Source: Acanthamoeba lenticulata (taxonomy: Eukaryota; Discosea; Longamoebia; Acanthamoebidae). Taken from it: a stretch of 64,000 bases of DNA. A program made the position numbers and the translations under genes. The notes under the pieces are model-generated. The model was not told where the DNA came from. It did not search any database and worked only from the letters and a program-made list of their open reading frames with translations. Location of the stretch: NCBI GenBank assembly GCA_002179805.1, contig NAVB01000197.1:1-64000 (forward strand). Direction: 5' to 3'. Shown one piece after another: positions 15,781-22,814 of this stretch; within the stretch, counting starts at the first letter, position 1, and the number at the start of each line of letters is the position of its first letter.

Positions 15781-18062
15781 ATGTCGTCCTCCAAGTTCTG
15801 CTCGCGCGAGCCGCAAGATCTGAAGCAGATCTTTGGTCGTGTCGCCGAATACGCTGCCCAATGTACGTTGCTCGCATCCTCACTGCTACGCAGTCCTTGT
15901 CTCTTGTGAATTTATTTTATTTATTCTTTTCATCTAATCCTGCGGAACGGCCGCTACCCCCAGATGTGGCCCAGCACTACCAATTCGACAAGACCCGCGT
16001 GATCAACTTTGTGCCACCGGACAAGCTCAAGGAGATCATCGACTTTTCTCTTCCCGCTGCGGGCTCTGGCCTTACCCCCGACCTCAAGAGTGCGCCCCAC
16101 TCCTCTTCCTTTTGTCCTTCCACACTCTGCACGCAGAACCATCGCCAACCTGTTGTTGTTGTTGGACATCGCCTCGTCGTCATCGTTGGGCCCAAACACA
16201 GGCGTGGAGAAGTACCTGGACCAGGTGCTCGAGTACAGCGTGCGCACTGGCTCGCCCCGCTACTTCAACCAGCTCTGGTCGGGCACTGATATCGCCTGCA
16301 TCGTGGCCGAGTGGGTGTCGGCCTTCACCAACTCGTCGACCTACACCTACGAGGTGGCGCCCGTCTACTCGCTCATGGAGATCGAGGTCATCAACCACCT
16401 CCTCAAGTTTGTCGGCTACGAGGGTGGCGACGGCATCCTGGCCTCGGGCGGCGCCGTCTGCAACTTCATGGGCCTTCTCTGCGCTCGCGACAAGCTCTTC
16501 CCTGAGTCCAAGACCGTACGCCTTCTTTTATTTATTATTGTTTTTATGTATTTTTTGTTAAAAAAAAGTTGTTCTCATTTTTGGTATTTTTAAATTTACA
16601 ACAGACTGGCAACCCGGAGGGCAAGAAGCTGGTGGCCTTCACGTCGGCACACAGCCACTACACCATCAAGCGCAGCACGTGGATGATGGGTCTTGGTCTG
16701 GACGCTGCCATCAACGTCGCCGTTGACGCTCGTGGCCACATGACTCCCGAGGCTCTCGGTGCGCCTTTCTTCCCTCTTTTTTTTTTTAAAAAAATTAAAA
16801 TATTTCTTTATTTAAATTATTATTTTTGTTTCTATTTTCTCATTCCATGTTCTCTGGGGCTGCAGATGAGGCCATCACCAAGGCCAAGGCCGAGGGTCTC
16901 ACGCCCTTCTGCGTCAACGCCACGTGCGGCACCACCGTCCTGGGCGTCTTCGAGGACATTGTACGATTTGCCTTCTTCTTGACTGTGGTTGATTGCTTCG
17001 TTGACCACTTCTTCTTCTCTTCTTCTCGGCTCCACAGAACGGCATCGCCGACGTGTGCCAGAAGCACGGCGTGTGGCTGCACGTCGATGGCGCGTGGGGC
17101 GGCAGTGTGCTCGTTTCCAAGAAGTGGCGCCACAAGATGGCCGGCGTGGAGCGTGCCGACTCGGTGGCCTGGTGTTTGCACAAGATGATGGGCATCAACC
17201 AGCAGTGCGCTGCTTTCCTCACCAAGGAGAACAACCTCCTCGTAAGGCTTCCTCTACACCAGCCATTTTTATTCATTTTTTCTTATTTTTCTTTTCTTTT
17301 ACATGTCATGCTGACGTCATCGCGTTTGTGTCTACAGAAAAAGGTGAACGCGAGCCACGCGGACTACTTGTTCCACTTTGACGACACGCGGCCCTACGAT
17401 CTGGGCGAGAAGACCCTCAACTGCGGTCGCCACCAGGACTCGTTCAAGGTGTGGCTCTCGTGGAAGGTCCACGGCGACGCCGGGATGGCGTACCGCGTCG
17501 ACACCAACTTTGCCAACGCGCAGTTCTTCACCGAGGAGCTCAAGAAGCGGAGCGACCGCTTCGAGCTCCTCTTCGAGCCCGAATGCACCCAAGTCTGCTT
17601 CTTGTACGTCTTTTTCATTGTCTTTTCTTTTTCTTCTTCTTTTGAGGGCCGTTGGCTGACACAACATGAACTACACAACGGCAGCTACCTGCCCAAGTGC
17701 ATTCGCGGGATGGCCAAGAGCAAGGAGCGCGATGAGCTGTGCGGCAAGTACGTGCCCATGCTGCGGCGCCGGATCCAGGTGTGCGGCTCCATGCTGGTCA
17801 ACTACAACCCGCTGGCCGAGTCGCTCCCCAACTTCCCCTTCGTCCCCAACCACTGGCGCATCGTGTGGGCGTACGTGGCGGCCGCTGTTCTCTCTTGCTC
17901 CTCCTTCTCCTCCTACTCGGTTGGTGCCTTGCCTCACGGAGCCTTCACGACTTGGTATCGTGCAGCAATCCGGAGCAGACGTTCGAGGATGCGCTCTTTG
18001 TGCTCGACGAGATGGACAGGCTGGGCGAGGACATGACCCTCGGCGAGACCGCGCAGGCCTGA
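15781..18062 (+). CDS. PLP-dependent group II decarboxylase (glutamate/cysteine-sulfinate decarboxylase-like)
   Basis: About nine exons. The first ends after codon 27 with a phase-1 GTACGT donor. Landmarks: SPRYFNQLWSGTD, YEVAPVYSLMEIEV, GDGILASGGAVCNFMGL (PLP phosphate region), FTSAHSHYTIKRS, ATCGTTVLGVFEDI, WLHVDGAWGGSVL (the Asp binds the pyridine N), SVAWCLHKMMGI (Schiff-base Lys), and a C-terminal NYNPL...NHWRIVW block. This places it with GAD65/67, CSAD and GADL1 rather than with aromatic amino-acid decarboxylases. Likely reaction: decarboxylation of an acidic amino acid (glutamate, aspartate or cysteine sulfinate); the substrate cannot be fixed by eye. The usual NPHK motif reads CLHK here. 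Introns at 16521-16604 and 16760-16864 are unusually A/T-rich compared with the exons. Confidence 0.93.
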
Positions 18063-18238: not shown

Positions 18239-21200
18239 TTACATGCAGATGCACTTGGCGTCCTTGTCGCCTTCCTTGACCGCCTTCTCGTACACGGCCA
18301 GTTCCTCCAGATACGACTTGGGCGGCCACTGCACACAAGCCAGACCCCCCATGTGAGAGACAGATCGCGCAACGCGCAGGCACAAGGCAGTGGAGTGGTA
18401 AGGGCCGGCACCTGGTTGGCTTCGATGTACTCGAGGCTGTCACCGGCCAGAGTCTTGAACTCGGGCCGCTTGCTCATGGGCTGGTAGTTGGACGCGATAA
18501 AGTGTCGGCAAAAGCCTGGCGTTCATGTGTGTCAGTCGTGTGTGCGGCACTGTTGTTGGAGGCATGCAACGCACCGACGAGCTGGTCAGCGTTGTGCTGC
18601 TCGGCCAGATGCAGGAGTCCCACCACGTCGATGTCGGCCTTCTCGATGCCGTCACTGCACCATCCCAGACATGATGATGAGAGGCGCCCATCAACCACAT
18701 CACCATCACTATCACCATCACATCACACAAAAGGCACGCGACGGACCTGGTGGCGGCCTCGACCTCCTTGCTGATGTAGAGCTCGCACAGGGTGATCAGC
18801 CGCGGCAGGCCTGCGCAGCTTCGGTCGTTAGGTTTTTCATCATCATCGTGGTCACCATCTCGGTCGGGCCAATCTCATGGGGAGCGCACCGAAGCGGTTG
18901 GCGAGGACGAGTATGCCCACAGAGTCGCCGCTTTCGCTGATGGGCGAGTGGTCCGTGTAGAGGAACTCGAGCATGGCCATGAAGCTCTCCACCGACGTGT
19001 CGCCGATGGGCACCGCCTGCAGCGAGTCCTCCACGAAGTGGCCCGAGAACATGGCCGCCAGCACCTTGCAGCGCCCCATCAGGATGGCCTTGTGCGCATG
19101 GATCCGGCGCCCTGTTACATCGTATTACAGAATTATTACGAATCTAGATGGGAAAATAATAATAATAAATGTCGAACCTTCAACTTCAAAGATGACGTCG
19201 GAAAGGAGGGGCTTGTCGAGGAAGAGCTCCTTGGCCACGTTGCCGGCCTCATCGTTGAGCCAAGTGCCGATCGACGGGTTGAGGAACTCGTCGCCCTGCA
19301 GCACGTTGCGGCAGATCGTGGCCAGGTGGTCCAGCTGGAACAGCTCCGCCGCCGCCAGCAGGTCCTGCACTCCGTCCCTGTGTCCCGCGCAACAACGTGA
19401 GCGATGTGAGGCCTTTTGTCTTGTCTTGTCTTGGGCTCGCGCCCTCAGACGGGGGGAGAATGGGGCTTGTGGCGCACGTCTTGTCGCGGATCGTGGCGAT
19501 GCCGGTGTAGAAGAATTCCAGGATTTTGCCAAACACGGCGAACCCGACTTGCTTGCTCACTCCGATGGCGTAATGCAGCTTGCCCTCCTCTGTGCACGCG
19601 CGCGCGTGTGTCGTGCGTTCAGTCTTGTGCTGGAGACTGAACTGGACTGGTGTGCGTACGAATGGACCGGTGGATGGAGGCTAGGCCCGGGACGTGCCCG
19701 GCGTTGATCTGCCGATAAAACTGCGGCATGGCCGGGTCGGCCTGCGCGCCCTTGGCCTCGTTGTCGTCTTCCTCCTCATCGCTCTCCTCGTTGCCGTTGT
19801 TGTCGTTCTCGCCCTCGTCGTCGTCGTTGTCCTCAGCGGGCTTGGGCTTGGCCGCTGCCTTGTGCTGTTGCTGGTAGTCGTGGATCTGGGAGCGGACGAG
19901 GTGGTTGGGGATGAGGGTCTTGTTCTCCAGCTCGGCGCCCGTGATGGGCGCCGTCGAGTGGGTCTGCAGCCACGCGGCGATGCTCGCCCGCTCGTACGTG
20001 TGTCCGTCACACGTCAGCACCGGGTCCGTCTGCGACGATGACGTCAGCCATCATGGTGACGCCAGCAAGCCGCAGGGGGACGTACCATGATCTCCTGCGT
20101 GATGGGGCACAGGAAGTGCTCGGGCACGTCCTCTTGTCCTCCGAGAGCCTCGCCTGGTTGACCGTCGGCAACCTTCTCGGCCTTCTTGGTGGCCTTCTTC
20201 TTGCCCGACGAGGCCTTCTTGCTGCTCTTCTTGTCCTTCTTGTTGGCGCTCTTGCCCTTGAGCTTCTTCTTGGGCTTGTCGTCCTTCTTGGACACGATCG
20301 CTGCTGTTGTTGCCGCGTCTTCTTTGTCGTCGACAAAGATGCGCCGGAAGAGCGTCGAGTTGGCCGCGAGCACCGCCTGATGCGCCTGGAATGTCCGCTC
20401 CCCGACCACAAACTGCACACAAGGGCGGGACACCATCATCAGCCCAGCGCGCGATGGCCGCGCTACCACAGCCAACGCGTGCCTTCACGTCGGCCTCGGC
20501 GCCAGAGTCGAGGAGGCCCTTGAAGTCGTCGGCAAAGGTCGACGTCTGGATGTTGGTCCACGGCGCGTGCGTGGGCTTGGGCAGCACCTGCTCGTCATTG
20601 TTGTCATCATCATCAGCATCAGTACCATCATCTCTTCTTGGCTAGTGGAAGAGGTCGAGCGTGCGTACGGGCGGGACCAGGGCGGGCTTGTAATCATACG
20701 AAGAGGACTTGCCCGACTTGCCGCCGCGCTTCTTCAAAGTAAACTTGCTGCCGCTGCCGCTGCTGCTGCCACGGGGAGAGACGCCAGCCGTGATGATCTG
20801 GTCGAACGCTTGCTTCACGCCCTCCATCGTCAGCGCGCTAGTCTCCACGTAGCACGCCGCTTTGATCTGCGCTCGCATGCAAGGACAACACTCGCTCGGG
20901 TCAGCAGCTGCCGACGATCGTCCGGACAGCCGGCGGGCAGAGCCAGTGGCGCGTGTACCCGCTTGGCCATCTCGACGCCCTCCTCAGTGGTGACCGTGTG
21001 CTGTCCGCGGTCCCGCAGCCGCGACCTGCGACGCAACCGTGAGCAGGCAGAGCTTAGCCCAGAAGAAGAAGAAGAAGAAGAAGCGCGAGTATGTACTGGA
21101 TGTCGTTGTCGTGGCGGAGGTCGATCTTGTTGGCGCACAGGACGATGGGCGTGCCCGGGCAATAGTGCTCGATCTCGGAGACCCACTTGGCCGCCACGTT

Positions 21201-21730
21201 CTCAAGCGAGGCCGGGCTCGCGATGGAGAAGCAGACCACGAAGACGTCGGTTTGCGGGTAGGAGAGCGGCCGCAGCCGGTCGTAGTCCTCCTGGCCGGCT
21301 GTGTCCCTGATGAATGAAGAAGGGAGGAAGAGGAGGGAGGATGGTGACGTCATCACGTGCACCATCTTCTCCTTCATGATCAAGCAGCGACTGGTACCAG
21401 AGGCCGACGTTGTAGGGCTTCCCGCCGACCATTACGTTCGCGCTGGACGAGGAAAAGACAAAAGAGGACATGAGGAAAATGATGGTGTGCCAAGCAAGTG
21501 GTCGTAGAAGAAGGAGGGGGGCTTGCCTGTAGTTGTCGAAAACGGTCGGTACATACTCGCTGGGGAAGCTGTTCGTGGTGTAGGAAATCAAGAGGCAGCT
21601 TTTGCCCACGGCTCCATCCCCGACGACCTGAGGCGGCCAAGGGCCGTTAAGTCGTTCCAATATCCATCCGTTTCTTCTTGGCCCACCCCCTGCACAAGAG
21701 GCAACATACCACTACTTTAAGGGCTTGCAT
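18239..21730 (-). CDS. Rho GTPase-BTB(with U-box insert)-BTB protein with CaaX end (RhoBTB/RacA-like)
   Basis: A tiny first exon (MQALKVV, 21710-21730) splices to [12 protein letters not shown]. The Rho GTPase has [27 protein letters not shown] and ANKIDL, all catalytically intact. After a Gly/Ser/Lys linker, the first half of BTB1 reads [21 protein letters not shown] Lys-rich insert leads into a complete U-box (about 19880-20130: [39 protein letters not shown]). After an acidic insert, the second half of BTB1 follows ([12 protein letters not shown]), then BTB2 ([38 protein letters not shown]), a BACK-like helical tail, and a C-terminal CICM, a CaaX prenylation box. RhoBTB proteins are CUL3 adaptors; the U-box adds an E2-binding module. 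It is probably a membrane-attached ubiquitin ligase platform. Many short introns. Confidence 0.92.
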
Positions 21731-21959: not shown

Positions 21960-22814
21960 ATGTCGGCTCACGAAGGAGAGGCAGGCCCGCACATCAGTCC
22001 CGCTGGAGAAGGAGGCCGCTATCGCACGGAAACGGCCACGACTTTCTGGAATGAACAGAGCCAAGCGTACGAGTCGCGCCCGTTCTATGCCGAGACGGGC
22101 GACTTCTTCCGCTGGTGTCTCGACCTGGTCCTCATCCACCTGCAGGCCACTGCCGACTCGCGCATCGTCGACCTGGGCGCTGGCACGGGCAATTTCTCGC
22201 ATGCGCTCCACAAGGCCCTCCGGACGCGCCACCCAGTCGTGTGCGTCGACCCCTCCGCGGGCCTGCTGGCACTTGCGCGGGAGCGAGAAGGCGTGCACCC
22301 TGTGGTCAGCGGCGCATTCGAGTTCGTCGTTGGCGACACTGCGGACGAGTCAACGGGCCCCGCGGAACTGCAGCAGTTCGATCGGGTGCTCATGAAGGAG
22401 ATGGTGCACTTCATTCCGCGTGAGCAGTGGCACATCTTGTGGCCCGCCCTCTTCGAGCGCCTTCCACCGGGAGGACGGGTGGTCATCATGATGCGGCCCC
22501 AAAGCACCGAGTTCCCCTGGACACGCAACATCGAGGCCACTTGGGAGCGGTTGTGGACGGGCGACGGCCTCGAGGACGCCATCCGGGCAGCCGGCTTTCA
22601 CGTAACGTCGGTCGAGTCCGGGTTCCCGTTGTCCATGCGCAAGGCCGAGTGGCTTGACCTGCTGGCTTCGCGCTTCTGGTCGAACCTGTCCGAGGAGCAT
22701 CTTTCTGAGAGCGAGCTCGCGCGTGCCCTGGAGGAGCTGCGAGCGACCTTGCCTGATGAAGCCGTGCTGTCATGGCACGACAACTTCACAGTCATCGTGT
22801 GCGCCAAGCCATGA
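21960..22814 (+). CDS. Class I SAM-dependent methyltransferase, intronless
   Basis: A single 284-codon exon. Motif I (VDLGAGTGNF, residue about 70), an acidic residue after the second strand (CVDPSAG), FDRVLMKEMVHFI (motif IV region) and PPGGRVVIMMRP (motif VI region) define a Rossmann-fold methyltransferase of the UbiE/Methyltransf_11-25 type. The N-terminal FWNEQSQAYESRP resembles ubiquinone/menaquinone- and small-molecule methyltransferases. The substrate is unknown. The absence of introns is unusual here, since most neighbours have many. Either an ancestral intronless gene, a retrocopy or a transferred gene would explain this. Confidence 0.9.
   Translation: MSAHEGEAGPHISPAGEGGRYRTETATTFWNEQSQAYESRPFYAETGDFFRWCLDLVLIHLQATADSRIVDLGAGTGNFSHALHKALRTRHPVVCVDPSAGLLALAREREGVHPVVSGAFEFVVGDTADESTGPAELQQFDRVLMKEMVHFIPREQWHILWPALFERLPPGGRVVIMMRPQSTEFPWTRNIEATWERLWTGDGLEDAIRAAGFHVTSVESGFPLSMRKAEWLDLLASRFWSNLSEEHLSESELARALEELRATLPDEAVLSWHDNFTVIVCAKP

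Follow-up and report, generated by a model that had tools for sequence, protein, structure and literature searches.

One profilin encoded in the genome analysed matches profilin IA (PDB 1PRQ) and profilin I (1ACF) of Acanthamoeba castellanii at 114 of 125 positions each, which fits an Acanthamoeba or a near relative. The question raised by this locus of Acanthamoeba lenticulata is whether one gene encodes a Rho GTPase whose first BTB domain (BTB1) is interrupted by a U-box and, if so, what kind of ubiquitin ligase such a protein might be. The window, i.e. the whole stretch of DNA analysed, comprises positions 1 to 64,000 of contig NAVB01000197.1.

Gene Model and Domain Architecture

A minus-strand gene running from an ATG at 21730 to a stop at 18239 was modelled, and its product is a 771-amino acid Rho GTPase/BTB/U-box protein. 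The reading frame is single and unbroken across 16 predicted exons. The 15 introns are 56-100 bases long; 13 are of the GT-AG type and two (introns 2 and 7) of the GC-AG type. Splice junctions are predicted ones, placed by eye and by the family-typical sequence read over each junction, and such sequence is restored at the junctions, for example FDNYSANVMV and LWDTAGQED. It is likewise restored at both GC-AG introns (after exon 2, 21527, and after exon 7, 20483). The limits of the gene model coincide exactly with the 18239-21730 given in the initial annotation. The features are as follows, with their basis in brackets.

18239..21730, minus strand: whole coding region, 16 exons, 771 amino acids (gene model and Pfam domains)
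21710..21730, minus strand: exon 1, start Met, MQALKVV (gene model)
21527..21627, minus strand: exon 2, GTPase P-loop and switch I (PTVFDNY), then a GC-AG intron (gene model, domains)
21398..21442, minus strand: exon 3, GTPase (gene model)
21097..21306, minus strand: exon 4, GTPase switch II (DTAGQED) to NKxD motif (gene model, domains)
20959..21025, minus strand: exon 5, GTPase (gene model)
20669..20866, minus strand: exon 6, end of GTPase and Ser/Lys linker (gene model)
20483..20587, minus strand: exon 7, Pro-rich linker and start of BTB1, then a GC-AG intron (gene model, alignment)
20332..20412, minus strand: exon 8, first part, remainder of BTB1 first half (gene model, alignment)
20131..20331, minus strand: exon 8, middle, Lys-rich tether (alignment, P0001 model)
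20086..20127, minus strand: exon 8, last part, first part of U-box, residues 345-358 (gene model, domains)
19859..20029, minus strand: exon 9, first part, remainder of U-box, residues 359-415 (gene model, domains)
19730..19858, minus strand: exon 9, middle, acidic tether (gene model, alignment)
19660..19729, minus strand: exon 9, end, BTB1 second half starts (gene model, alignment)
19478..19589, minus strand: exon 10, BTB1 second half (KILEFFYTG) (gene model, alignment)
19178..19377, minus strand: exon 11, end of BTB1, linker, start of BTB2 (gene model)
18890..19111, minus strand: exon 12, BTB2 with phi-x-E signature (FVE) (gene model, SPOP alignment)
18747..18810, minus strand: exon 13, end of BTB2 and start of BACK/3-box-like region (gene model, SPOP alignment)
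18575..18654, minus strand: exon 14, BACK/3-box-like region (gene model, SPOP alignment)
18412..18515, minus strand: exon 15, C-terminal domain (gene model)
18239..18328, minus strand: exon 16, C-terminal domain; CaaX-type end CICM and stop at 18239-18253 (gene model)

The protein comprises, in order, a Rac-like GTPase, a Pro-rich linker, the first half of BTB1, a Lys-rich tether, the U-box, an acidic tether, the second half of BTB1, a second BTB domain (BTB2), a weakly scored BACK-like region and CICM, the C terminus reading KCICM-stop. Pfam places a Ras domain at residues 5-174 (E = 1.4e-50), a U-box at residues 345-415 (E = 8e-20; 71.2 bits against a cut-off of 21.4) and a BTB match (7e-41) over three stretches, the best being residues 573-673. 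The match to BACK_BPM_SPOP (PF24570) is, at 21.3 bits, below its cut-off of 27.4, and part of this region aligns with SPOP. The best PDB matches of residues 1-180 are Rac3 and Rac1. The architecture read in the initial annotation, with an intact Rho GTPase, BTB1 split by a Lys-rich segment and a U-box, then BTB2 and a CICM end, was borne out by the gene model and Pfam. The Lys-rich segment lies upstream of the U-box, and both U-box motifs quoted in that annotation are present, joined across intron 8. An acidic segment downstream of the U-box, absent from that annotation, is also present.

Exon 8 encodes most of the BTB1 first half, then the Lys-rich tether and the opening residues of the U-box, and exon 9 holds the remaining U-box, the acidic tether and the next portion of BTB1. 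As the U-box thus begins in an exon that also encodes part of BTB1, it does not belong to a neighbouring gene, and skipping it alone would need cryptic sites. That the domains belong to a single gene product agrees both with this shared exon and with transcript-assembly (TRINITY) names on seven of 25 homologues. Matches to residues 427-771 in the 48.5-Mb genome (1,825 contigs; 58 of 239 candidates scored) fall only on contig C180, and the remaining genome matches listed are confined to residues 1-220 (other GTPases) or 286-426 (other U-boxes).

A convergent neighbour at ~17005-18062 (plus strand) has a pyridoxal-dependent decarboxylase domain (one 66-amino acid piece tested, E = 5.5e-23). On the other side a divergent open reading frame at 21960-22814 (plus strand), with a methyltransferase domain, begins about 230 bases from the ATG of the RhoBTB gene. 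Several matches to the U-box elsewhere in the genome come as equal-score pairs on two contigs (C665/C1592, C750/C757 and others), a pattern suggestive of recent duplicates or of haplotypes that the assembly left unmerged. The RhoBTB gene was met once.

The U-box RhoBTB Family and Other Inserts in BTB1

Three protein searches detected a U-box inside a RhoBTB-type BTB region in 25 database proteins (nine, seven and nine new, respectively). Precomputed annotation also gives a Ras domain in 15 of them, and several of the others are fragments. The combination of a RhoBTB-type BTB region and a U-box was found in other Amoebozoa, such as Arcella intermedia (P0005, Tubulinea) and Pelomyxa schiedti (P0146, Archamoebae), and also in the metamonad Anaeramoeba ignava (P0101). 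The automatic database names of the Arcella and Pelomyxa proteins are "RING-type E3 ubiquitin transferase" and "rac gtpase", respectively. No match named as Acanthamoeba castellanii appeared in the protein searches, the first of which scored the 7,994 candidates sharing most words. Seven proteins (P0003, P0004, P0006, P0047, P0097, P0109 and P0113) carry the TRINITY names, and P0001 is an 808-amino acid uninterrupted frame within a 2,498-base contig.

As judged by eye, the U-box site is identical in the 19 of 26 rows (A. lenticulata included) that have both flanks, one flank being cut short in the other seven. In each of these 19 rows the U-box follows the alpha3 motif (LFRRIF type) and precedes the BTB1 second half. 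Comparison with the two closest relatives, P0001 and P0002 (values in that order, gaps left out), gave identities of 86% and 90% for the A. lenticulata U-box, 86% and 84% for BTB2, 91% and 87% for the final 99 residues, and 67% and 72% for the BTB1 second half. For the Lys-rich tether the values are 39% and 36%, and for the acidic tether 35% and 29%. The GTPase shares 76% identity with its P0001 counterpart. On these alignments the U-box is conserved as strictly as BTB2, and both tethers far less. Repeated in 25 database proteins, the combination is, on sequence grounds, far beyond chance, and the U-box RhoBTBs are a conserved family that extends beyond one species.

AlphaFold2 models of the relatives P0001 and P0098 have the U-box looped out as a separate domain, and the prediction for a relative has BTB1 and BTB2 packed against each other in the manner of a BTB pair. 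The stretch matching the Lys-rich tether is largely disordered in the P0001 model. The P0098 model gave structure matches to E4B and CHIP and agrees with an SPOP-like BTB2 and following region. A fold search with the full-length P0001 model returned Rho-family chains only, among the 50 matches listed.

Phylogenetic trees are compatible with one or with several gains of the U-box. A quick tree of 77 of 103 rows (26 thinned by hand) united 17 U-box rows with P0016, though with weak support (SH-aLRT 87). More careful trees of hand-picked rows neither recovered nor rejected one U-box clade (p-AU 0.549 with 56 rows; 0.254 with 58 rows and a simpler model). The supported U-box clades in the 58-row tree were an Acanthamoeba-type (97/87), an Arcella-type (100/100) and one with Pelomyxa (100/100), plus Anaeramoeba. 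A tree of U-boxes only (33 rows; one of six same-genome loci passed the cut) scattered the RhoBTB U-boxes with long branches and little signal, with a p-AU of 0.075 against one clade. For the U-box of Anaeramoeba P0101 (residues 283-352) the LubX score is 60 bits and the CHIP score 59; that of A. lenticulata has its highest scores, about 55 bits, to plant PUBs and LubX (55.0 to the plant PUB 7c96; 54.5 to LubX, its two U-boxes summed) and at most 29 to CHIP (about 26-29). Since these scores differ, separate captures are possible, and the Anaeramoeba U-box may be one.

Other modules also occupy BTB1. RING-type Cys/His patterns, judged by eye and with a simple pattern, lie between beta1 and helix alpha2 in P0068, P0069, P0089, P0091, P0092, P0093 and P0148. 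These seven RhoBTBs group with Vannella robusta, and their site differs from that of the U-box. A second zinc-finger-like stretch also lies between beta1 and helix alpha2 in this group. A RING follows alpha3 in P0125 and lies later in the BTB1 loop in P0016 (both TRINITY-named; places by eye). The RING matches of P0016, P0068, P0089, P0092 and P0093 are below the Pfam cut-offs. We rejected a reading of the P0016 RING as a swap for the U-box at the same site, this RING being downstream of the GIQSISI stretch.

The BTB1 insert of P0110 contains an E2 domain (UQ_con, 88.1 bits; cut-off 27) together with SAM and VWA domains, and P0065, a partial relative of P0110, has an E2 domain in BTB1 (UQ_con, 86.6 bits). 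The P0110 E2 keeps the Cys aligned with the yeast Ubc4 Cys taken as catalytic, and its HPN reads HYA. Residues 340-384 of P0072, in the BTB1 region, give an EH-like match of 20.4 bits, below the cut-off of 22, and on this match we rejected the notion that only ubiquitin modules enter BTB1. In the sample examined, which was gathered by similarity to U-box RhoBTB proteins and not at random, BTB1 has received inserts more than once, mostly, not solely, ubiquitin modules. The majority of RhoBTBs among the rows listed have no U-box, RING or E2 module. Tentatively, the BTB1 loop could be an old socket for ubiquitin-transfer modules (U-box, RING in three positions, SAM-VWA-E2). The insertion in human BTB1 would then be a modified or emptied form of this socket, with dependence on CUL3 as one of its states, and RhoBTBs would be Rho-switched ligases equipped with a catalytic partner of their own.

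Ligase Features and Possible CUL3 Docking

We consider it fairly likely, on the features described here, that this RhoBTB-family protein is a Rho-switched, membrane-tethered and self-contained U-box ligase that recruits its own E2 and does not depend only on CUL3-RBX1. Its U-box keeps the Ile and Pro that we take to contact the E2 and has Gly at the position equivalent to the CHIP Arg, presumably the linchpin. Of the 26 rows, 10 (A. lenticulata included) have Gly there, 15 have Arg and one has Thr.

The phi-x-E motif of SPOP-type BTB domains has a role in CUL3 docking. BTB2 reads FVE where SPOP has MEE (phi-x-E, alpha3-beta4 loop), and BTB2 and the following region align with SPOP. The motif was not seen in BTB1, which is interrupted at that place by the U-box insert. 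Because the insert occupies the place of the SPOP-type phi-x-E, BTB1 is not the likelier cullin holder, and it is possible that one protein holds both a cullin and an E2, via BTB2 and the U-box. A CUL3 gene is present in the same genome, a piece of it on C484 scoring 245 bits to PDB CUL3 chains versus 168 to CUL4. Mammalian RhoBTBs are described as CUL3 adaptors, with CUL3 binding placed on BTB1 and an inactive state proposed to arise from GTPase-BTB1 contact (PMC4931677). Pro353 and Ser363 of human RhoBTB1 are reported to be required for CUL3 (PMC10413933).

The alternative that survives best, although we think it unlikely, is that the U-box supplants CUL3-RBX1. The protein would then act purely as a U-box ligase, and its BTB domains would do no more than pair and bind substrate. 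The insert does occupy the BTB1 loop in which SPOP-type BTBs have phi-x-E, and strict F/M-x-E is missing from BTB2 in seven of the 25 U-box rows with readable BTB2 versus 10 of 54 readable rows without a module (75 such rows, 21 unreadable by script), the reading being by script except for nine U-box rows read by eye. However, F-x-E is retained in BTB2 by the A. lenticulata protein and 17 other U-box rows, and the SPOP alignment of the A. lenticulata BTB2 and following region, with which the P0098 model concurs, also speaks for a kept dock. Moreover, the seven rows without F/M-x-E include four of one clade with Pelomyxa, hence few events. The Vannella-type RING group has strict F/M-x-E in none of seven readable rows (eight rows given), but two of the rows read (P0090 and P0094) are fragments without a RING, and P0069, P0089 and P0090 have L-x-E or I-x-E near the BTB2 phi-x-E place, so that an apparent loss in this group lends replacement little support.

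It is quite unlikely, in our judgement, that the U-box chiefly ubiquitinates its own RhoBTB, ending the signal, and not external substrates. A Lys-rich tether immediately upstream of the U-box would suit such a self-limiting switch, and mammalian RhoBTBs are described as substrates of their own ligase complexes (PMC4931677), but the tether is poorly conserved (36-39%) and scarcely present in some proteins, such as Anaeramoeba P0101. Improbable, too, is a U-box without ligase activity, acting merely as a docking surface for an E2 or partner. The linchpin-equivalent Gly favours this reading, whereas the Arg in 15 of 26 rows, a U-box conservation that matches that of BTB2, and the RING or E2 modules in BTB1 of other RhoBTBs, which suggest a ubiquitin-transfer role, oppose it. 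We rejected as next to impossible an artefact in which two genes or an assembly join were misread as one: the splice sites are predicted, two of them GC-AG, but exon 8 contains both the U-box start and part of BTB1, the same domain combination recurs in 25 homologues, seven of them TRINITY-named, and the P0001 frame is uninterrupted.

Known Systems and a Possible Mechanism

The RhoBTB subfamily (mammalian RhoBTB1-3, Dictyostelium RacA and animal racA-like proteins) shares with the A. lenticulata protein the Rho GTPase, Pro-rich linker, bipartite BTB1, BTB2 and perhaps the BACK/3-box-like C terminus, which scores weakly in A. lenticulata, but is without the U-box. Animal racA-like and dictyostelid proteins are 43-52% identical to it over about half of the query region, and a gar RHOBTB3 is 34% identical. 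The BTB1 insertion of mammalian RhoBTBs is described as of unknown function, and the GTPase domain of RhoBTB1/2 as deviating (PMC4931677).

The CaaX end, taken in the initial annotation as a distinction from animal RhoBTBs, proved not to be one and was rejected as such: a Cys at position -4 is found in 59 of the 72 RhoBTB-family proteins of the first protein search (P0001-P0072), among them many animal racA-like proteins and a gar RHOBTB3. Of the 26 U-box rows, 25 have this Cys, and the remaining one, P0070, is a truncated sequence. A CaaX box is described as missing from mammalian RhoBTB1/2 and from Dictyostelium RacA (PMC8305917), an absence that looks derived. The A. lenticulata protein is probably prenylated at CICM.

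A full U-box is shared with the ligases of the plant PUB, CHIP and UFD2/E4B types. In these the U-box is paired with ARM, TPR or UFD2 core, not with GTPase and BTB domains. SPOP/KLHL CUL3 adaptors are similar in that the BTB2 phi-x-E and following region align with SPOP; unlike them, the A. lenticulata protein adds a tandem BTB, an E2-recruiting domain and a GTPase. To our knowledge, the nearest published idea is TRIM23, in which a RING E3 is joined to an ARF GTPase. Both proteins thus unite an E3 module with a small GTPase, but TRIM23 is a RING-type TRIM with an ARF domain and has no BTB, U-box or Rho domain. The TRIM23-type layout of RING/B-box and ARF is not that of the A. lenticulata protein, in which a zf-RING_UBOX match (21.1 bits; cut-off 25.2) overlies the U-box, an Arf match (30.2 bits) overlies the Ras domain, itself at 171.5 bits, and no B-box is listed. 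In TRIM23 the two activities, carried in one chain, are described as linked (PMC5794181). No Rho GTPase/BTB/U-box ligase was found described among the papers listed in searches of the open-access (open-licence PMC) literature, in keeping with the initial annotation, which knew of none. Each of the parts is known; their combination, and the fact that it is conserved, appear not to have been described.

By its sequence or the models of relatives, the protein has an intact Rac-like GTPase, tandem BTBs, a U-box, a weak BACK/3-box-like region and a CaaX-type end. On the same evidence, two flexible and highly charged tethers connect the U-box to the loop that follows helix alpha3 in BTB1. As a self-contained ligase, the protein would recruit a charged E2 directly through the U-box, and the BTB and C-terminal parts would bring substrate, possibly also CUL3 through the BTB2 phi-x-E. 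The GTPase domain would keep BTB1 autoinhibited until its activation released the U-box, and farnesylation would place the ligase on a membrane. The economical model would be one BTB arm with an E2-recruiting U-box and the other arm able to hold CUL3; the seven U-box rows lacking F/M-x-E in BTB2 speak against extending such a dual model to all U-box RhoBTBs.

If this is true, an E2-recruiting domain, a substrate adaptor, a possible CUL3 dock, a GTP switch and a membrane anchor are combined in a single chain. With all ligase parts in one chain, Rho control of ubiquitination would therefore be testable with a single purified protein. Mammalian RhoBTBs have been linked to tumours (PMC4931677) and to epileptic encephalopathy (PMC11683136), and the family would offer a testable answer to what their unexplained BTB1 insertion may formerly have been. 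The relatives with the same layout in other amoebae would point to an unrecognised group of switchable ubiquitin ligases.
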